Source: a virus. Taken from it: a stretch of 41,146 nucleotides of DNA. The stretch covers positions 1-41,146 of the IMG/VR virus record IMGVR_UViG_3300028177_000420. One strand, written 5' to 3'. This document shows, in pieces, positions 3,922 through 41,146 of this stretch. Under the pieces are notes generated by a model that was not told where the DNA came from, did no database searches, and worked only from the letters and a program-made list of their open reading frames with translations. Each line of letters opens with the position of its first letter. Positions within the stretch are counted from its first letter, which is position 1. A program made the position numbers and the translations under genes.

Positions 3922-4053
3922 TTAATCAGGAAGTACCATACTAGTGTTCCGACCACGGCCATATCCAGACATACCGAATATAACAGGTATGCACGGATCA
4001 CCCATGGCCTTGCGCTCCGGAGGTACTTCACGGGTCTGTCCTCGTTCAATCAT
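3922..4053 (-). CDS. Small protein of unknown function (43 aa) between adenylate kinase and Fe-S carriers
   Basis: ATG at 4053 overlaps the adenylate kinase stop by eight bases, and the TAA ends directly next to the following ATG. The peptide starts MIERGQTREVPPERKAMG and continues with a single Cys (DPCIPVIFGMSGYGRGRN) and a Gly/Arg-rich C-terminus. It has no signal peptide. Its compact linkage on both sides and the protein-like composition make it a probable gene. I do not recognise the family. Confidence 0.6.
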   Translation of the reverse strand: MIERGQTREVPPERKAMGDPCIPVIFGMSGYGRGRNTSMVLPD

Positions 4054-4606
4054 TTTCTAGTTCCTTTATGATTTTCTTTGATGTATTCTCAGCAGTATCA
4101 CCTTCTGCTTTAATACTTATAAATTCACTTCTACCTTTATAATAATCAACAACTGGGCCTGTCTCCTTTTCATAAACCTTCAATCGGTTCTTTATGATTT
4201 CCGGCTTATCATCAGCACGACCTCTCGCTGTCAATCGGCGTATTACCTCTGCCTCACTTACATCCAAAAATACTACTCGATTTACTTCTATACTAGCCTT
4301 CTGCATTTCCTTTAGTTGTTCCATATTTCTAGGGAACCCATCAAGAATATATCCATTAGGCGATTTTAATATCTCTTGTTTTATGATTTTGACTACCACA
4401 TCCAAAGGCGCAAATTCACCCTTCGATATAAGAGCCTTTACCTCGGGATCATCAGACTTTCTCAGTATATCACCAGGATATATATGAGGTATACCAAAAT
4501 GTTTAGAGATGGCCTCGGAGTAGGTAGATTTACCAGACCCCGGGCCACCTAGTAACATAAGCTTGATAGATGCAGCTTCAATAATGTATGTAGAAAATCT
4601 TTTCAT
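4046..4606 (-). CDS. adk: Adenylate kinase with capsid-targeting-like N-terminus
   Basis: This is a short-form adenylate kinase (186 aa) that interconverts ATP, ADP and AMP. The P-loop is GGPGSGKST (residues 20-28), the AMP-binding region includes DGFPRN, and the LID is short (LTARGRADD). It lacks the zinc-finger LID. The first 14 residues, MKRFSTYIIEAASI, are an extension absent from ordinary adenylate kinases and resemble the T4 capsid-targeting leader (MKTYQEFIAEA in T4 IPIII), which is cut by gp21 after a Glu. A consensus promoter ends seven bases before the ATG, so the mRNA may be leaderless. It may work in nucleotide supply, be packaged and injected, or both. Confidence 0.88.
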   Translation of the reverse strand: MKRFSTYIIEAASIKLMLLGGPGSGKSTYSEAISKHFGIPHIYPGDILRKSDDPEVKALISKGEFAPLDVVVKIIKQEILKSPNGYILDGFPRNMEQLKEMQKASIEVNRVVFLDVSEAEVIRRLTARGRADDKPEIIKNRLKVYEKETGPVVDYYKGRSEFISIKAEGDTAENTSKKIIKELEND

Positions 4607-5692: not shown

Positions 5693-6790
5693 TTATTCTT
5701 TTTTGTCTTCCTCTTCAGAATTTGGAGGAATAGTAGTAATATTATCCTTATCATAATACTCCATAGGAATTTCTAACTTGTCTAACTTGTAGGGTAATAT
5801 AAGAAACTCTCCTTTACGAATTATCATAAGATAAACTATTTCATATGGTTTTTTATTTACCATATATGTGGCTACATCTATCATATCATTTATAGGATAA
5901 CCATCCATAGCCACAACAACATCATAGTTTTTTAGACCTTGTTTTGAGCCATAATCATCTTCCTCAAGAAAATTCATTATTACACCAAACGTATTTGGAA
6001 CTTCCTTACCTTCTTCCTCTAAAATATACGATGCAACATCTACATTTAGATTTATAACATTTAATTTTAGCGCAGGCCTTGGCACCTCTATACCCTGTGT
6101 CATCCATAGTAAAGAATTCGCTATAGTATCAATCTGTACGGCATAACCCATACCGCTATAGATTTGTATTTTTTGTACCGTACCTTTGGTGGGAGCAATT
6201 ATGTAAGTGTTTATACCTATCACATTTCCTTCAGTATTAAACAACGGGCCGCCGCTACTACCTTCCTGTATTACTGCATCATGCTGTATAAGATACACAT
6301 AGGGTGTAAGGAAACTCTGTCTATTGATTGAATTGATAACGCCTTTGGTGACTGACCATTGTAAACTTAATGGGGCACCTACCGCATATACATCTATCCC
6401 TGAAATTATTTTATCAGTATCATATTCTAAATTGACATAACTAAATTCTTCCTCAGGCCAAGGATCTATATCAATCAATGCCAAATCAGCAACAGGATCT
6501 ATTCCTATTACTGTAGCTGTATGGTAACGTCGGCGTCTGTCTTTATGTAACCATACTCTAATTTTATCTGAATTATGCACCACATGATAGTTTGTTAGAA
6601 TATTACCATCTTCGGATATGATTACACCCGAACCATGGCCTGTTACCATATTGTCTTTCTCAACCCTGACTAAAACTGTAGAATTTAATGCTTTGGACAT
6701 CAAATCCACATGAGTCAATTCTTCAGCGTATGCCTTGAAGGTGCATAATGTTAAGAGAGACACCAAGAGAAACTTGGTGTATATTTTCAT
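5693..6790 (-). CDS. Secreted HtrA-type serine protease with PDZ domain
   Basis: A 365-residue protein starting MKIYTKFLLVSLLTLC. That is a signal peptide with a probable cut after TFKAYA (residue 22). A trypsin-like domain follows: His in NYHVVHN, Asp in VADLALIDID, Ser in QEGSSGGPLF. A PDZ-like domain lies near residues 250-350 (GSKQGLKNYDVVVAMDG). The start at 6790 is set by a TAGGAAA site and by the signal peptide; an ATG 32 codons upstream lies inside the preceding gene. It would act in the periplasm, degrading or folding proteins. Why a phage carries it is unclear; it follows the tape-measure gene and may act during assembly or lysis. Confidence 0.88.
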   Translation of the reverse strand: MKIYTKFLLVSLLTLCTFKAYAEELTHVDLMSKALNSTVLVRVEKDNMVTGHGSGVIISEDGNILTNYHVVHNSDKIRVWLHKDRRRRYHTATVIGIDPVADLALIDIDPWPEEEFSYVNLEYDTDKIISGIDVYAVGAPLSLQWSVTKGVINSINRQSFLTPYVYLIQHDAVIQEGSSGGPLFNTEGNVIGINTYIIAPTKGTVQKIQIYSGMGYAVQIDTIANSLLWMTQGIEVPRPALKLNVINLNVDVASYILEEEGKEVPNTFGVIMNFLEEDDYGSKQGLKNYDVVVAMDGYPINDMIDVATYMVNKKPYEIVYLMIIRKGEFLILPYKLDKLEIPMEYYDKDNITTIPPNSEEEDKKE

Positions 6791-6800
6791 ATTGTATTTC

Positions 6801-9800
6801 CTAATCAAATTTCGCCCAGCCAGATAGTGCATACCCTGACTGCTTATGTGTATTGGGATCAGATGCCATCTTGGGCGTTTGTACATTTATCGTGGTATTA
6901 CTATTGCTAGAATTTGTAACAGGAGCATTAACTATGTTATTACTACTACCACCCTCACCATACATATTAGCACTTGCTGTAGCGATATCGTTTCCTGGTG
7001 TCATTTGAGCTGATGGTTCAATAGCCGGGTCACGATATGATGCTCTAGCACCAGCAAGTTCTACTGCCCTACCTCTACCTGTAGAATTAACATCAATGTA
7101 TGTTGAGCCTGTAAGTTCTTGCAATCGGTCAATATCATCCGCAGTATATATACCCTGATCTCTTAATTTAGCCTCATCACCTTTCCAATCTTCCCAATCG
7201 ACTGTTTTGTAGCTATCTGCAATATTATTATAATCACCACGGGCGCCACCTGAGCCATCTTCGCTAGTTATTATCGACTGGCTAACATCACCGATAGAAT
7301 TCATAACTCGGGTCATCTGTGAAGTACCTTCCTCATACTCATCGCCTGAAAATTCAGTACTAAACTTGTTCACGGCTTCTATATTCGTACCAAACATATA
7401 ATCCATAGTCGCTATTTTAGCATCTCGTTTAGCTTCTGTTTTTCGTTTCTCTAGCGGGTTTTCTTCGTAGTACCCTGTATTTTCCTCTAGTAAATAAGCT
7501 GCACGGGCCCGGGCATCCTCGGCCGTAGCATTCTTATCTCTCATAAAGCGCTGCGCTTCTTTTTTGGTCATTTCTTCATTTGCAACTACTGCTCTGAGTT
7601 CTTCCTGTCTCTCTGCTCTATCTATCTCAACTTCATCCTCATATTCTAATCCCATTTTTGTCTGTCGCTGCAAGACACCTGCGCCACCGCCAGCATAAGC
7701 AACACCTTTATCTTGCATTGCTTTGAACATCTGGGCCCATTCTTCATCTGTAGCACTCGCTAAAAATTCTCTACGACCTTCAATGGTACTCATATCAACT
7801 TCTTTATCACCTACTGAAGCAGCCAATGCCGGTGGAGGAACAACCTTTTTACCTGAGGCTGTTTCTGTTGGTTTAGTTTTACCATCAGATTTTAAGCCCA
7901 TACCTTCTTTCATAATCTCACCTAAGGGAACATCATGGGTATAGAGCGAACCTTCCTCAAGCGCAGCATTAGTCATCTTTTGTTGATCTTCAGCAAGAAC
8001 TGCTTGTAGTTGTACTTGTTCTTGATTAAGTGCCGCAATTTCTATTTCTTCTTCGGTACTAATTTGGTTTAATGCCAATTGTTCTTGTTCATTAATTGCT
8101 GCAATTTCTGTTTCGGAATGGCCTTGAGCTTGTGAAAGTGCTATTGCAGCATTCCTAACATCTATATCCTTATCTTCTTGGGTATACTCACCAATACCAA
8201 ACAAACCACCCTCACTAATTTCTTTTTCTGTAGCTGATTTTAATTTTTTCTCTAACTGAGTAACATTATTTTGAACTATTTGACGGCTATCTTCAGCTGC
8301 CTCACCGACCTGGCCACGTTTTCTTTCAGCCCGTGATTTTGCATCTGTTTTTTCTTCTTCTACTTCTGCAATTTTTTCTGTAGTTACAGCAATCGCCTCT
8401 GCGGTCTTATCTTTGTCGCTACCAAGTCCAAGCCAACCCATTAATTTCTTACCACCAGGAACTTTAGAAATCATAGATACTAACAAACCACCCCAATCTA
8501 TATCAAAGATATTAGCAAACCATTCACCTATAGCCGCAAGAGCATTTTTTAAGGTTTCCCATAAACTAAACCCTTCACTGGCTGCTTCTCCATCTTCTTC
8601 GCCCCAAGAGAATAATTCAGTAAACCACTTTTTTACGCTTTTCCATATGTCTGAAATGTATGTTGTTAAATTAGTCCAACCTTCAGCAATACCATCTGAA
8701 GCCCATGCCCAGAGTCCTTTGAACCAAGCAATAGCAGAATCCCATACACCTTTAATAAACGTGGTTACATTAGTCCAACCTTCCGCTATACCATCTGAAG
8801 CCCAAGACCATATTTTTTTAAACCAAGCAATAGCAGAATCCCAAATACCTTTAATAAATGTTGTCACATTAGTCCAACCTTCTGCTATACCATCACTAGC
8901 CCATGCCCAGAGTCCTTTGAACCAAGCAATAGCAGAATCCCATACACCTTTAACAAATGTAGTCACATTAGTCCAACCTTTAGCAATACCATCACTAGCC
9001 CATTCCCAAAGGCCTTTGAACCAGCCTATTACTTTATCCCACACGCCTTGGATAAATTCTGTCAAACCTGTCCATACACCAGATATTGCTTCACTAGCCC
9101 ACGTCCAGAGTCCTTTAAACCAATCTACTACTTTCAGGAAGGCCTCTTTAATCGGTTTCCAAAATTTGACTGTCAGCCAAAGAACTAATCCGGCAATGGC
9201 AGCAACAACCAGAATCTTCCATTTTGCAAACATCATCACTACTTTAAAAATAGTTTTAAAGAAGTTAAAGAATTTTAAAATCATTTTACCAAACTTACCC
9301 ATCCCACCTAACTTCTCAGCAATACCACCTTCAACTGCATCTTCACCTTCCTTTGATGCATCTGGTCCTTCTGCAACGTCCGCCATTATCTCCAGGAGTG
9401 ATGTTTGTTTTTTCAGTTCATCTAATATTTCGGCAGAACTACCAGCGATACTGTCCATAGCAATAGCAGGATCTGCAATACCAGCACCTTCGGCTGCAGC
9501 TTCACTACCATCGGCCTCAACACCTTCTTCTTCCTCACCACCACCAAACATAGACATTGCTGCACCTTTAAGAGAAGCCCCAATACCTTTAATCTTTCCG
9601 CCGATAGTTGTAGGTTTTTCTTGCGGCTTGACATCTTCTACTGGCTTACCTGTTTCTGGATCAGTTCCAAATGCTGCGCCTTTTCCCATAACATGAGCTT
9701 TAGCCAGGGCACCAATAGATAATTTCTTTTTAGGTATGGCCTCAGTGGTTGGTTTAACTCCAGGTGGCGCATCTTTATCTTTTTTATCACCAAACAGAGC

Positions 9801-20846: not shown

Positions 20847-21582
20847 AAAACAATGACTCCCATGACACAGGAAATTTCTCCTTGGCTAAATCATATAGTT
20901 CCCAAGCAACATTTCTAGTTTCTTCTTGTGTATCACCTTTACATCTTAACTTACATACTCTAGAAAATGCATACAATGAACCAGTCCAATACCATTCTGT
21001 ATAGGTGTTCTGTGGTAGTACCATACGAGCTTGTTCTGGTGCAATACCAGCATCCAACATTTTCTTATAAGTTTCTACAGCCAAATCACATGATGCACTA
21101 ACCGCAGCACCAACTCTCACCTCACGATCTAACCATTCTATTGTCTCATCACCAGACCCTTGTTTCTTATCTACTGGTTTACTTCTCCATATCTCTGGGT
21201 CCCAATATTCTGGCTCATCTTCCACATACCGGCGTGACACTTCATTCCATACCAAACCTACCTGATGCTTGACTAACTGCCGTGCAACAAAAATGGGTGC
21301 CTTAATGTGAAATGATAATGTTGCATGACCAAAAGGAGTCCAATGACCATGCTTGGCAAGATACTGAATAAGCTTCTTATCTCTATCGGCGAGCTCATAG
21401 ATGCCTTGCCCAGGGATGTGTTTTGCCCACTGCGACTTCTTTGCAAAACTAACCCGAGCGGCATTAACTACGCTAAGGTCATCCCCCATAAAATCTATTA
21501 GACTAACATCCATATCTATATAAAAACGAGCCGAGGATGCCAACCCCCTGTCAATAGCGGACGAGCCCTGTATTTGATCCAT
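20833..21582 (-). CDS. thyX: Flavin-dependent thymidylate synthase ThyX
   Basis: ThyX makes dTMP from dUMP with FAD, methylene-tetrahydrofolate and NADPH. The signature RHRxxSxNExSxRY appears in changed form as KHQVGLVWNEVSRRY (residues about 105-119), with the NExSxRY half intact. Other ThyX elements are AARVSFAKK near residue 45, FGHATLSFHI, and ARMVLPQNTYTEWYW. The start given is an ATG inside the last codons of glnA; the conserved core only begins at about residue 24, so an ATG at 21513 is possible. It completes DNA precursor synthesis with the RNR. Confidence 0.9.
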   Translation of the reverse strand: MDQIQGSSAIDRGLASSARFYIDMDVSLIDFMGDDLSVVNAARVSFAKKSQWAKHIPGQGIYELADRDKKLIQYLAKHGHWTPFGHATLSFHIKAPIFVARQLVKHQVGLVWNEVSRRYVEDEPEYWDPEIWRSKPVDKKQGSGDETIEWLDREVRVGAAVSASCDLAVETYKKMLDAGIAPEQARMVLPQNTYTEWYWTGSLYAFSRVCKLRCKGDTQEETRNVAWELYDLAKEKFPVSWESLFYANI

Positions 21583-22576
21583 CAATAGTCTCTACAATAT
21601 GTTTCATCACTCTATAGGGATCAGCATTTGCAGAAGGACGGCGATCTTCTAGATAACCATTCCAGTTGTTGTCTACTGTAATAATAGGAATACGAATACT
21701 AGCACCCCGATCACTAACCCCATAACTAAATTTTTTAATAGATTGTGTCTCATGTTTTCCTGTCAACCTCTGATCATTATCTGCACCATACTCTTTGATG
21801 GCTTCTTTATGTTTTGATCCTAGAAGTTTGCAACACGCTTCAAAATATGATTGCGAACCTAAATCTCTCATCTGTGCATTAGAAAAGTTTGTATGCATAC
21901 CGGAACCATTCCAATCACCTTTCTGTGGTTTAGGACTAAAGTCAATAGAGACTCCATGCTTCTCTGCAATCTTCATTAGAATATAACGAGACATCCACAT
22001 ATCATCCCCGGCACTTACACCAGACCCTAATACCTGATACTCCCACTGACCTAATGCAACTTCAGCATTAGTACCAGTGATACCTATATTAGCGTTCATA
22101 CACGCCTCTGTATGACGGTCTACGATCTCTCGGCCGATAACGTTATCAGCACCAACGCCACAGTAGAAATCCCCCTGTGCCCGAGGCTTGCCCTTCTCAG
22201 GCCATCCTAGCGGCCGTCCATCTTTATACATAAAATACTCTTGCTCAAAACCAAACCACCACTCACTACTAATCAATTCTAAACAATGGGTTCGTGTATT
22301 ACTGGGATGTGGTTCGTGATCAGCACTCAATACCTCACACATCACATAAGTGCCACCAAGGCCATCTCCTGTGCGAGTTGCATCTGCACGGATACGATCA
22401 ATGGTATGATACTCACCTACAGGATTTAAAATACAATCTGACTTATCACCTGTAGCCTGTTGTGTTGATGATCCGTCAAATGACCATAAACCAACTACAT
22501 CATCAATTTTAACTTTACTTCTTAGTGATGGTGTTGGTTTATAACCATCTAACCAAACATACTCTAACTTTTCCAT
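21551..22576 (-). CDS. glnII: Glutamine synthetase, type II (eukaryote-like)
   Basis: A complete 341-residue GSII that makes glutamine from glutamate, ammonia and ATP. Motifs in order: YVWLDG, LWSFDGSSTQQATGDKSD, WWFGFEQEYFM with GWP after it, DFYCGVGA, GTNAEVALGQWEYQ, PKPQKGDWNGSGMHTNFS, RLTGKHET and GASIRIPI plus YLEDRRPSANADPY. All the metal and ATP-binding residues I know of appear present. No regulatory adenylylation site is expected in this family. It is next to thyX and downstream of gp59, in the gp59-gp32 cargo segment. It could supply glutamine for nucleotide synthesis and relieve nitrogen limitation. Confidence 0.92.
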   Translation of the reverse strand: MEKLEYVWLDGYKPTPSLRSKVKIDDVVGLWSFDGSSTQQATGDKSDCILNPVGEYHTIDRIRADATRTGDGLGGTYVMCEVLSADHEPHPSNTRTHCLELISSEWWFGFEQEYFMYKDGRPLGWPEKGKPRAQGDFYCGVGADNVIGREIVDRHTEACMNANIGITGTNAEVALGQWEYQVLGSGVSAGDDMWMSRYILMKIAEKHGVSIDFSPKPQKGDWNGSGMHTNFSNAQMRDLGSQSYFEACCKLLGSKHKEAIKEYGADNDQRLTGKHETQSIKKFSYGVSDRGASIRIPIITVDNNWNGYLEDRRPSANADPYRVMKHIVETIDGSNTGLVRY

Positions 22577-23967: not shown

Positions 23968-24355
23968 GGTGTGTGGCTCTCGGAGGGCAGGGACCACGTT
24001 CTTTCAATATACATAGTTAGAAATGAGCCCGTTTGGTTATAAGGTGGTGCTCATGCCCCATCAGATATCACGCTGCTAGCGCATAGTCCTGAAAGTAAAC
24101 GTCATCGTTGGCGTTTGTGTTTTGTGTCAGAACCCTCTTGCAAAATTTCAACTCGCCCCGTCGAAGCCATGTCACCCCCGTATTCGTTCGTAAGCAATTG
24201 CTTATTCCGTTCGGGTGGTAATGGACCCAACATACCTAGTCGGGCCCATTGATTCTCGGTATAATACCAATCATCAGATTTGGTGGAGGTGGTGGGAATC
24301 GAACCCACGTCCGAAACGCCTACTCTTTTACCGTCATCAGTTTCTTTCACGGTCT
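23968..24355 (-). ncRNA. ssrA: Circularly permuted (two-piece) tmRNA
   Basis: The acceptor part comes first (about 24355-24281) and ends with GTTTCGGACGTGG, a T arm GTGGG-TTCGATT-CCCAC and CACCTCC-A-CCA. After a 101-base intervening segment (24280-24180) the coding piece starts GGGGGTGACATGGCTTCGAC at 24179. GGGGGTG pairs with CACCTCC over all seven positions, with a G3-U70 pair, the alanine identity. The tag frame follows at 24112. Later stems include ATGAGC/GCTCAT. Processing would give two RNAs held together by base pairing, as in alphaproteobacteria and cyanobacteria. It rescues stalled ribosomes. Piece ends at 24355 and 23968 are estimates. An AATAAATA octamer lies at 24355-24362. Confidence 0.92.
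24068..24112 (-). other. tmRNA tag reading frame ANDDVYFQDYALAA
   Basis: The resume codon GCC (24112-24110) starts a 14-residue tag, ANDDVYFQDYALAA, ending in TGA at 24070-24068. The AND start and the YALAA end match the bacterial tag consensus; the last residues are the ClpX/ClpA degron. The stop is followed by ATATC. Confidence 0.92.
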
Positions 24356-24357
24356 AT

Positions 24358-24948
24358 TTATTCAGAAGAAGAACTGCCGAGACTAATATTTAAAGAAATA
24401 CCAGCAACAACCGTGCCTCGATTCCAATCCGAATCATAAGGAATAGTCAAGTTAGGTGTTAGGGTAAAACCATCGGACAACTTCCAACTATAACCAACCC
24501 CAGCTTCTGAACCTGAAAATTCTGTTTCATCAACATCAAAATCTACTGAGTAATAACTATCCAAACCGAGGATACCATAACCCACTTTCACTGTCGAATC
24601 AAAATCTGTATCATTGACATTCCAATCAAGTGATGGTGTAATTGTAGCACCCCACTGACCAAAAGATGTTTCTAAGCCAATAACATTATCATTATCAGCC
24701 TGGTGATCTAAACCAACAGTAGCATCAAGTGCACCAAGTAATGTCGTAGAATAAGAAATACCAATATCAACTGTATCACTAGTGGAAATTCCTAGGCCAT
24801 TATGACTTGCAGAAAATTCATTTCCTGATTGGTCAAATGATACCGATGTATCACCTGTACCCACAGTAAGATCGTGCGACCAATCCGTTGTAAAAGCCAT
24901 AGCACTTAATGGTGCCATGCATAGTAAAGCTACTAAAGTTTTTTTCAT
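24358..24948 (-). CDS. Predicted outer-membrane beta-barrel protein (196 aa)
   Basis: MKKTLVALLCMAPLSAMA is a signal peptide (cut after residue 18). The mature part is a chain of alternating beta-strands (GLGISTSDTVDIGISYSTTLLGALDATVGLD...), with Asp/Asn-rich turns, as in small porin-like barrels of 8-10 strands. It ends ISLNISLGSSSSE, so the last strand lacks the usual terminal aromatic residue. Good ribosome site (AAGGAGA). A phage-encoded outer membrane protein could block superinfection or alter the host surface. It lies directly upstream of the tmRNA; a late-like octamer GATAAATA is at 25009-25016. Confidence 0.75.
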   Translation of the reverse strand: MKKTLVALLCMAPLSAMAFTTDWSHDLTVGTGDTSVSFDQSGNEFSASHNGLGISTSDTVDIGISYSTTLLGALDATVGLDHQADNDNVIGLETSFGQWGATITPSLDWNVNDTDFDSTVKVGYGILGLDSYYSVDFDVDETEFSGSEAGVGYSWKLSDGFTLTPNLTIPYDSDWNRGTVVAGISLNISLGSSSSE

Positions 24949-38260: not shown

Positions 38261-38289
38261 ATTATATAACGAATAGGTGGGAAAGTCAA
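38261..38289 (-). promoter_or_regulatory. Sigma70-type promoter of primase, TTGACT-N17-TATAAT
   Basis: -35 TTGACT (38289-38284) and -10 TATAAT (38266-38261) on the minus strand, 17 bp apart. The -10 ends six bases before the primase ATG. Confidence 0.88.
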
Positions 38290-38388: not shown

Positions 38389-38871
38389 CTAATTAATAAT
38401 TACTGCTTGACACAACCAGATAGGTTCGTTGTTATCTTCATCCCAACCAGCATACTCTGCATCACAGGCATTAGTACCACAAGTTTCTATCAACCACTCA
38501 CCTACACTTAAACCTTCTTGACACGCCTCGCAAGAAGGTGTCAATGCCATACAACAAATTCTAGGTCGTTCTATGTCACAATATAGAGTGTTACCTGGAT
38601 ACCAACAACCCGGCGGGTCGGTAGGTCTTTCACAACCCCAACCTGTGCAGGGCGGCCGCTCTATCACTGCCTCGTCCTCTATCCAAACATCTACTGGTTC
38701 ACACGCATCACCTGTAATACCTATACCAGCTACAGCAGTACACGCCTGCCCTTTACTATCCTCACCTCTTTCACAACCTGTTAGCATCGGTACTATTATT
38801 AATGCTATCAATATACCTAGTATAAAATACAACGCATGATATTTTCTATGTCCAAACGGATCTCTGTCCAT
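38389..38871 (-). CDS. Cys-rich lipoprotein (160 aa)
   Basis: A transmembrane signal (FILGILIALIIVPMLTGC) places the lipobox Cys at 33. The secreted part has 13 more cysteines (CTAVAGIGITGDAC, CTGWGC, CC and several C-x2/3-C pairs), with Pro and Trp, which suggests a disulfide-knotted domain on the periplasmic face of a membrane. It follows the cyclase gene with GGAGG before its ATG. Possible functions: sensor input to the cyclase, surface exclusion, or host cell binding. Family unknown. Confidence 0.7.
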   Translation of the reverse strand: MDRDPFGHRKYHALYFILGILIALIIVPMLTGCERGEDSKGQACTAVAGIGITGDACEPVDVWIEDEAVIERPPCTGWGCERPTDPPGCWYPGNTLYCDIERPRICCMALTPSCEACQEGLSVGEWLIETCGTNACDAEYAGWDEDNNEPIWLCQAVIIN

Positions 38872-38914
38872 GATATATTTCCTCCATGACGAGATTCACA
38901 TTACACATAATATA

Positions 38915-40975
38915 TTATTTTGTTGTAGCTCTATACACTCCATCCCAATCTTCGCCGGGACTATTTTCTTTGTATTCAGCAATTCGATCTAACATTATAT
39001 CATAATAGTCAGCCATATCAGGCCAACCATCTCTCAAATCATTCGCAAACTTCTCTGCACTCATCCACGATTGACCACGATAAAGTTGCAAGAACTTTTC
39101 GTGTTGCTGTTGGTTAAAATACCAATTGGTATTCTTAAAGACCCATTCGTTATTACCTAATACTGTGAAAATACGAACCGAATCTTTCTTTCCTTTAACT
39201 GCAATACTATCCAACTCCACACTAAACAACTCATTCTCAACGGCCGATGCAGTTTCTTCACCTAATATAATAGTTACACCATACCCTTTAGACTGTCCTT
39301 CTAGTCTCGATGCAAGGTTCGCCGCATCACCTAATATAGAATAATCAAAACGATTATTTGATCCCATGTTACCCACAACTACCTCACCAGTGTTGATGCC
39401 TATCCCAATCTTGATAGGCATGAGTCCTTCGGACTCTAGTTCATCGTTTAATTCCTTTAGTCGTTGCACCATCCCTAGTGCAGACTCAACAGCTTTCATC
39501 TCATGATCACTTACATTCACTGGAGCATTCCAAAAAGCCATAATACAGTCTCCCATGTATTTATCAATTGTGCCATCTTTAGACATAATAAAATCAGTCA
39601 TTGGTGTTAGAAATCTATTGATGAGAGATGTCAGTCCCTGTGGGTCTGTCTTATACTGTTCACTGATAGGTGTGAAGCCTCTGATGTCTGCAAACAATAT
39701 GGATAGTTTCTTTGTCTCTCCACCTAACTTCAGCAGTTCTGGATTCTTCTGGAGTATCATTACCATTGCCGGTGATAGATATGTACCAAACTGTTTCTTA
39801 ATGAGCATCTTCTGTTTGAATTCTAATATGAATCTATTGAAGATGCTATGCATACCAACTATAGTTGTCGTAATAATAATCCAACTTACATCAGCAAGCA
39901 CTAGATGTCTTGTAAACAACCAGTAACTACCAAACGCACTGCCAGCATAGAATAGTATCATCATACCACCGACTGCCCAGTATGGTGTAAATCTTGTAAG
40001 GACTACAATGATAAGTCCTACTAATACTGAAATCATCAACTCTATAAACAAACTTATATCATATCGTTTGGGTGCAGTGCCATTGATAACTGTCTGTAGT
40101 GCAGAGGCAGATAGAGCCCAATCGTATTGTTCCCCTACTGGTGTGCCGATGATACTGCCGAGTCCTTCAGCCGTGATACCAACAACAACCGTCTTACCCT
40201 TGAGTGTCGAATAATCATCTGCTGACGCAGATACAGATTGGAAAGTATTATTCCACCGTAACCATATTCTGGCGTGAGCATCTGTGTTGATGGTGGGATA
40301 ACCTGGCACACGGACTGCTATGACTCCAGCATCACCTGCTTTGATTTGATAACTTGGATTGCCTGTAGCAACACGGATAGTTTCGATTGCCATTGCGGGA
40401 TATGTTTCTTCACCCACTCTCATTATCAGTGGTAGTCGTCTGACCACACCGTCTATCTCTGGTGCTGTATTGATAACACCTACACCATCAGCAGTACCAC
40501 CCAAGTCTGGTATAGGTCCTAACATACCATTCCATTCATACAACCAGGGCAGTGGGTCACCTATCTTGGCAACACCTCTTGGCACAGCATTCTTGTGTGT
40601 TTGGTTTGTACCGACCTGTGCTATCACTACACCCATTTGATGTAACGATATCATAAACATCTCATCACCACCTAGTCGGTCTGGTTCGGAGAATAGTATT
40701 GGCATCACAATGATACCGACCTCTGCCGCACGAAGGCGGTACACTATGTCGGCGAGCACATCCCGATTCCACGGATACTGACCATACTTTTCTATAGAGG
40801 CCTCGTCTATCGTAACGATACCAATGTCTGGTGATAACTCTTTTTCTTCATACTGAGCAAGTAGGTCAAAACTTTTCAGTCGTAATGTTTCTTTTACAAA
40901 GGGGTCTTGTAGTCCTATAAATGTAATCACCGCAAGTGTCACAAACCCCATCATCCAATTTGATAATATTTTCAT
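38915..40975 (-). CDS. CHASE2-domain membrane adenylate cyclase (class III)
   Basis: A 686-residue protein: N-terminal helix (residues 7-22), a CHASE2 sensor domain facing the periplasm (about 30-300; IGIVTIDEASIEKYGQYPWNR is typical), three transmembrane helices (about 308-327, 332-353, 359-380) and a class III nucleotidyl cyclase (about 420-605). Metal-binding Asp430 (LFADIRGFT) and Asp476 (YMGDCIMAFW), adenine-type Lys472, and Asn553/Arg557 (LGDAANLASRLEG) are all present, so the enzyme looks active. It would make cAMP (or cGMP) at the membrane. TAATG coupling to the upstream partial gene. A phage-borne cyclase with an extracellular sensor is unusual. Confidence 0.9.
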   Translation of the reverse strand: MKILSNWMMGFVTLAVITFIGLQDPFVKETLRLKSFDLLAQYEEKELSPDIGIVTIDEASIEKYGQYPWNRDVLADIVYRLRAAEVGIIVMPILFSEPDRLGGDEMFMISLHQMGVVIAQVGTNQTHKNAVPRGVAKIGDPLPWLYEWNGMLGPIPDLGGTADGVGVINTAPEIDGVVRRLPLIMRVGEETYPAMAIETIRVATGNPSYQIKAGDAGVIAVRVPGYPTINTDAHARIWLRWNNTFQSVSASADDYSTLKGKTVVVGITAEGLGSIIGTPVGEQYDWALSASALQTVINGTAPKRYDISLFIELMISVLVGLIIVVLTRFTPYWAVGGMMILFYAGSAFGSYWLFTRHLVLADVSWIIITTTIVGMHSIFNRFILEFKQKMLIKKQFGTYLSPAMVMILQKNPELLKLGGETKKLSILFADIRGFTPISEQYKTDPQGLTSLINRFLTPMTDFIMSKDGTIDKYMGDCIMAFWNAPVNVSDHEMKAVESALGMVQRLKELNDELESEGLMPIKIGIGINTGEVVVGNMGSNNRFDYSILGDAANLASRLEGQSKGYGVTIILGEETASAVENELFSVELDSIAVKGKKDSVRIFTVLGNNEWVFKNTNWYFNQQQHEKFLQLYRGQSWMSAEKFANDLRDGWPDMADYYDIMLDRIAEYKENSPGEDWDGVYRATTK

Positions 40976-41146
40976 TAGTTTTGTGTTACATTAACCGTAC
41001 ACCCTCCGGAGGTTTGACAATTATTAGTTAGTGAATAAGTCTGGTCTGTTTGACTATCTTGCGTCAGAGTCAAATCTGTCCCATAAGAACCAGTCAGGTC
41101 TATTGTAGCAGTATGATCCCCATCTGATTTCTGTACGAGGTTGACA
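40975..41146 (-). CDS. Partial secreted repeat-like protein (C-terminus)
   Basis: The frame enters from the right edge and ends in TAA that overlaps the cyclase ATG (TAATG). The visible 56 residues (DLTGSYGTDLTLTQDSQTDQ, then YSLTNN, CQTSGGCTVNVTQN) are short beta strands rich in Thr, Asn, Gln and Gly, with a Cys pair near the end. It resembles a curlin-like or other beta-solenoid secreted protein. The whole gene is needed to judge. Confidence 0.55.
   Translation of the reverse strand, partial: VNLVQKSDGDHTATIDLTGSYGTDLTLTQDSQTDQTYSLTNNCQTSGGCTVNVTQN

Follow-up and report, generated by a model that had tools for sequence, protein, structure and literature searches.

What this locus asks is why a phage should carry a membrane-bound sensor fused to a cyclase, and to which other genes that sensor belongs. 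The window, that is, the whole stretch analysed (41,146 nucleotides, positions 1 to 41,146 of IMG/VR record IMGVR_UViG_3300028177_000420), has three minus-strand genes at its right edge: first, in the direction of reading, one truncated by the edge, of which the final 56 codons are left, then those for a 686-aa and a 160-aa protein (Table 1). A first-pass annotation, made from these letters, had correctly seen a phage genome and had joined the three genes into one cAMP-signalling module. The reading that we prefer, and hold to be somewhat likelier than not, is that they are the 3' end of a phage curli (type VIII secretion, T8SS) cassette followed by a lineage-specific lipoprotein, in a T4-like (Kyanoviridae-type) marine phage, and that the unit serves surface signalling late in infection, tied to curlin export. 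The sequences show the identity, order and conservation of the genes, an intact ATP-type active site and a late-type promoter in a relative, whereas the late surface-signalling role would be the most likely function of such a unit.

Table 1. Features at the right edge of the window (coordinates in window numbering).
Feature	Position	Strand	Evidence
3' end of second curlin-repeat gene Cur2, 56 codons + stop, cut by window edge	40975..41145	-	profile, tblastn, position
CHASE2 receptor adenylate cyclase, 686 aa	38915..40975	-	Pfam and PHROG matches; AlphaFold2 model, pLDDT 88.3
CHASE2 sensor domain, residues 15-321, behind N-terminal membrane helix (9-23)	40013..40933	-	Pfam 6e-38; model helices
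Three membrane helices and linker helix (308-329, 332-357, 364-396)	39788..40054	-	model secondary structure; partial hydropathy support
Class III cyclase domain, residues 421-599	39179..39715	-	Pfam (Guanylate_cyc) 1.9e-23; alignment; Foldseek to Cya2, CyaB, CyaC
Helical C-terminal tail, residues 609-686, ending DWDGVYRATTK	38918..39151	-	alignments and model
GGAGG ribosome-binding site of lipoprotein gene	38881..38885	-	read from sequence, 9 nt upstream of ATG
Predicted lipoprotein, 14 Cys, 160 aa, lineage-specific	38389..38871	-	lipobox and helix; four relatives directly 3' of cyclase
Sigma-70-like promoter TTGACT-17-TATAAT before next gene (primase)	38261..38289	-	sequence, 11/12 matches

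The layout of the 686-aa protein was derived from its Pfam matches and from an AlphaFold2 model based on an alignment of 22 sequences (the window and fetched loci), which shows a single N-terminal helix, a large CHASE2 domain, three further membrane-region helices and a cyclase fold. Pfam and the model together place CHASE2 between the N-terminal helix and the three membrane helices (308-396), in agreement with the earlier proposal of a sensor outside the cytoplasm. All of the best 50 solved structures matching the model were cyclases, and no CHASE2 match was found among these 50 PDB entries; Cya2, CyaB (P. aeruginosa) and CyaC (Spirulina) share the catalytic fold, with TM-scores to the target of 0.82-0.89. 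The alignment confirmed that the class III catalytic residues are intact, as had been claimed: the metal Asp D430 and D476, the ATP pair K472/D544 and the transition-state pair N553/R557 are all present, and the set is complete in 82 of 83 aligned cyclases. Judged by these residues, the cytoplasmic domain is of the adenylate type and probably makes cAMP. PADLOC PycC models also match the window cyclase (6e-29), but they match as well a diverged domain of its relatives described below, and the match probably reflects general class III likeness. Membership in Pycsar was rejected, there being no cNMP-binding effector domain anywhere in 15 phage records; PycC matches such as this one, at 38915-40975(-) and without an effector, probably lead to false Pycsar calls.

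The key to the neighbourhood came from the cut gene upstream. The cyclase ATG (40975-40973) shares one base with the upstream TAA (40977-40975), giving TAATG, an overlap that had been noted at the outset. The upstream product had been described as secreted and beta-rich; its linkage to the cyclase stands, and its identity has been corrected to that of a curlin-type fibre subunit, by sequence the second curlin-repeat protein, Cur2. The 56-codon frame matches a phage Cur2 curlin-repeat profile, seeded with phages HTVC008M and Melnitz, at 8.2e-22; its closest tblastn relative (65% identical over 54 aa) is the Cur2 of locus L175, and its position is that of Cur2 in complete cassettes. The order in both HTVC008M (KC465899) and the Methylophilales phage Melnitz (MZ577095) is CsgF-CsgG-Cur1-FecR-Cur2-cyclase, with the cyclase last (Pfam in HTVC008M: CsgG 5e-53, CsgF 5e-16, FecR 1e-8, Curlin_rpt 5e-8). 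The HTVC008M cyclase is 53% identical to that of the window over 603 residues, whereas the Melnitz protein aligns over all 686 residues (47%). The C-terminal tail, common to bacterial relatives, Melnitz and the window, is missing in HTVC008M, which also differs from the window phage in having no lipoprotein after the cyclase. The genes that follow are primase and RNR in the window phage but tape-measure genes in the pelagiphage module, of which a podovirus version has a histidine kinase before CsgF.

This arrangement proved general in a first set of 82 loci around window-like cyclases (HTVC008M, Melnitz and 80 from the viral collection, these being the best 80 of 599 relatives, so that rarer arrangements may be under-sampled). 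Among loci with enough upstream sequence, FecR was found in 43 of 44, CsgG in 31 of 35 and CsgF in 26 of 27, the CsgG misses lying at truncated contig ends or beside insertions; a curlin gene and the cyclase occurred together in 65 of the 68 loci with 300 bp upstream. A second set mostly kept the order; in L185-L187 the curli genes are turned round with respect to the cyclase. Linkage of the cyclase to curli is not universal, since locus L165 has a divergent-CHASE2 cyclase and the lipoprotein, while the 2.8 kb upstream contain neither a curlin nor a FecR gene; there (L165:2834-4900), a window-type output domain and the lipoprotein lie behind a small, possibly secreted protein that is not a curlin. 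A curli/T8SS module with FecR and adenylate cyclase was described in pelagiphages by Wittmers et al. 2022 (PMC9599517), after partial reports of phage curli genes (Zaragoza-Solas et al. 2020, PMC7029224; PMC9004378, whose main text mentions neither the cyclase nor the FecR of Melnitz). The window thus holds a further member of this already described marine-phage cassette, cut by its edge, which the first-pass annotation had missed, and the functional unit reaches past the window to CsgG and CsgF. As for the three-gene module and its co-occurrence in relatives, the curlin-cyclase pair holds, while the lipoprotein is mostly absent, being present in four other contigs only.

A close relative made it possible to compare the cut gene with a complete one. 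From the cyclase start codon onward, contig L164 matches the window at 98.7% identity over 8585 nt, and it has the whole curli cassette, of which the window itself shows only the 56 codons besides the cyclase. However, its Cur2 is a different protein, of 110 residues, and the likeness ends at the gene boundary: the alleles switch exactly at the cyclase start (window 40975/40976; L164:3896). That the window and this near-twin carry unrelated Cur2 alleles is a new observation. A comparison of 75 complete cassettes shows the greatest divergence in Cur2 (mean pairwise identity 0.35, length 110-496), the cyclase and CsgG both standing at 0.55. Since Cur2 is the most divergent gene and the two alleles differ, the fibre protein is the exchangeable part of the cassette. 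In the preferred reading, the curlin-repeat proteins would reach the cell surface late in infection through CsgG and CsgF, the variable Cur2 protein forming the exposed part; CHASE2, probably with the FecR protein, would sense the condition of the periplasm or of the export process, to which the cytoplasmic domain would respond by making cAMP.

The main support for a link between the phage cyclase and export is that FecR, cyclase and a surface-protein exporter recur together in bacteria. The best 80 bacterial loci were nearly all alphaproteobacterial by record title. CHASE2 cyclases of Thalassospira (L107), a marine single-cell genome (L088) and a Caulobacteraceae MAG (L084) have the same domain layout and catalytic residues as the window protein, with identities of 44% at best among the alphaproteobacterial relatives. 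FecR adjoins the cyclase in several of these, and lies directly upstream of it, without curli genes, in eight loci. In marine single-cell genomes the cyclase adjoins, unlike in the window, a cNMP-binding/HlyD adaptor fusion, a second cNMP-binding protein and a type I exporter, with a FecR-RTX protein farther away. The fusion lies directly before the CHASE2 cyclase at L088:7246-8961 and L086:7208-8932 (supported by Pfam in L088 only), and suggests cAMP-gated type I secretion in marine Alphaproteobacteria. PMC9599517 places FecR and the cyclase outside bacterial T8SS operons; in contrast, the Caulobacteraceae MAG has a CsgF-CsgG-Cur-Cur-FecR-cyclase operon (L084:4986-11043) on a contig with chromosomal-looking genes. 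Its protein falls among phages in the sensor tree and outside them in the cyclase tree, and such cyclases were not found to be common in its order (1/249 at E<=1e-120).

If cAMP is made, it should have a reader. No cNMP-binding domain was found in the 15 phage records, which include the complete HTVC008M and Melnitz genomes, and this counts against the preferred reading, as does the fact that no clumping was seen in Melnitz cultures (PMC9004378). On the host side, the sample was the order containing genomes with the SAR11-441R 16S oligonucleotide, which we take to pick out the SAR11 order. Among its 147 genomes none had a class III cyclase, and 10 had a cNMP-binding domain, nearly always in a protein of about 870 aa; these counts, which like that of the phage records are new, bear first on phages of the HTVC008M type. 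It had been proposed that phage cAMP retunes host metabolism, and one could suppose that it does so through host cAMP receptors, the cyclase being a general second-messenger gene that lies beside curli by chance. The intact ATP-type active site of the window cyclase and the ten genomes with a candidate receptor are in line with this idea, yet the other 137 have no recognised cNMP-binding domain, a class III cyclase is missing from all 147, the linkage of the cyclase to curli genes is near-invariant, and a late promoter, as in HTVC008M, would leave little time for retuning. The proposal is weakened by these domain counts, and we regard it as improbable.

The evidence for late timing comes from HTVC008M, in which ATAAATAG lies 12 nt before csgF, as it does before the tape-measure, gp2, gp48/54 and gp25 genes. 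Eight of 27 late genes, but none of 23 early genes, have ATAAATA within 60 nt (p=0.005), the classes being those that we assigned from knowledge of T4; upstream of csgF the motif is present in 45 of 82 cassettes, compared with 11.8 in shuffles. That a T4-type late promoter opens the cassette in HTVC008M is a new finding. The motif was not found in L164 within the stretch inspected, so that late expression is something we infer for the window phage. At the other end, the promoter before the primase gene suggests that the curli-cyclase unit ends there; it is a weak candidate, as promoter-like sites overall were not above shuffles (18 vs 14.5).

Late timing would also suit a hypothesis put forward for Melnitz (Buchholz 2022, PMC9004378), that CsgG and CsgF are a repurposed lysis-timing pore; the CHASE2 protein would then sense a change in the envelope and help to time its opening. 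The outer-membrane pore genes are indeed present. Nevertheless, a bare pore needs no curlin-repeat genes, and these are kept with the pore genes in the 75 complete cassettes, with Cur2 as the most divergent gene; moreover, the Melnitz record annotates curlin-repeat genes, even though PMC9004378 describes csgA and csgB as lacking. We therefore give this hypothesis only a small chance.

A further turn was provided by the output domain of Melnitz, which carries D544S and N553S where the window is canonical; that the same cassette should have a non-canonical active site argues against curli-export signalling through cAMP. All 80 Melnitz-type sequences have Ser at both 544 and 553 (window numbering), but they were picked by this very pattern and mostly from sets collected with the Melnitz protein as query, so that neither the Ser counts nor natural prevalence are independent measures; the pattern is present in 78 of 79 readable members of the Melnitz-query set. 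Independent measures are provided by the neighbouring residues H480, H482, H543 and D546, which are also fixed, and by a dN/dS of 0.076 for the twin-Ser domain, compared with 0.073 for the canonical one and 0.137 for Melnitz-type sensors. Decay of the Melnitz-type cyclase was accordingly rejected. D544 and S546 are exchanged in the twin-Ser sequences, so that the ATP-selecting Asp may have been shifted by two residues instead of lost, whereas the alignment has the transition-state Asn truly replaced. Inactivity cannot be assumed, because Ma1120, a natural cyclase without this Asn, is active (PMC4215837).

In the cyclase tree the twin-Ser domains group as a single clade (57/57, support 1.0). 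In the sensor tree, by contrast, the same proteins are scattered, with at least six changes, and a single clade is rejected (AU p 3.8e-8; p 3.5e-8 without L167). Locus L167 is itself a swap, 90-100% window-like through CHASE2 and 80-96% Melnitz-like through the cyclase domain, with the lipoprotein behind. The site, under purifying selection and swapped between sensors, was recorded in L083, L167 and L168-L247. A heterodimer with a second phage cyclase was not supported, as each of 21 records (two complete genomes; the others may be fragments) has one cyclase domain. A recent origin from bacteria was likewise not supported, the DNA motif being present in 0 of 398 Pseudomonadota genomes, a partial sampling, and no replacement of Asn553 was found in the best 30 alphaproteobacterial matches, all of which keep it. 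What is new, then, is the swapped output domain of the Melnitz-type relatives, in which two conserved Ser stand in place of the ATP-selecting Asp and the transition-state Asn, and which is under strong purifying selection.

It is conceivable, although we would not bet on it, that the same CHASE2 sensors, repeatedly domain-swapped, feed either a canonical cyclase (window, HTVC008M) or a twin-Ser cyclase so far restricted to phages, which, in hosts perhaps devoid of class III cyclases, would make another cyclic nucleotide or signal without one. The stronger proposal, that making cAMP is not the main task of the cytoplasmic domain, which has a nucleotide-binding or alternative-nucleotide output, canonical and twin-Ser versions being interchangeable, is compatible with the conservation of the twin-Ser domain, the supported swaps, the single cyclase per record with no canonical partner seen, and the lack of a cNMP receptor in the 15 phage records. 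Against it, the window version keeps every catalytic residue, and bacterial relatives with the same residues adjoin cNMP-binding proteins; we consider it unlikely.

There remains the gene behind the cyclase, which had been called a 14-cysteine lipoprotein gene, a designation that the sequence supports. Its product has a membrane helix (residues 13-31) and an MLTGC lipobox with Cys33, this Cys and the preceding Gly being kept in all aligned relatives, and is predicted to be a signal peptidase II-type lipoprotein. The gene is considered real because two scans of the viral collection yielded four further contigs with a homologue (three of them 52-69% identical, the fourth identical). All four have it directly after the cyclase, including L165, with its different CHASE2, and L167, with the other output domain, a constancy that would fit an obligate partner of the cyclase acting as a ligand-binding co-receptor. 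However, neither the remaining cyclase loci of the first set nor 50,697 phage records yielded a relative, and the slot after the cyclase usually holds unrelated genes, which leaves little room for that role. The lipoprotein was consequently rejected as a conserved member of the module; it accompanies the cyclase gene within a single small lineage and does not serve as a general partner. A screen for Cys-rich ORFs in all frames returned mostly antisense noise.

Among ocean phages that infect streamlined bacteria, curli cassettes with their linked cyclase are widespread, and the most surprising material lies in the relatives of the window rather than in the window itself. Several handles emerge: a sensor predicted to make a signal for which hardly any receptor turned up in SAR11-order genomes or in the phages, a fibre gene whose alleles are exchanged at a gene boundary, and another type of active site that is also conserved. 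Elsewhere, the window encodes a phage glutamine synthetase (21551-22576(-), Pfam 6e-17) that overlaps the next, ThyX-like gene, Melnitz being reported to lack glnA; a permuted two-piece tmRNA (23977-24373(-)) with the tag ANDDVYFQDYALAA; a DegP-like trypsin/PDZ protease with a signal-like N-terminal stretch (5693-6886(-)); and an adenylate kinase (4046-4606(-)).
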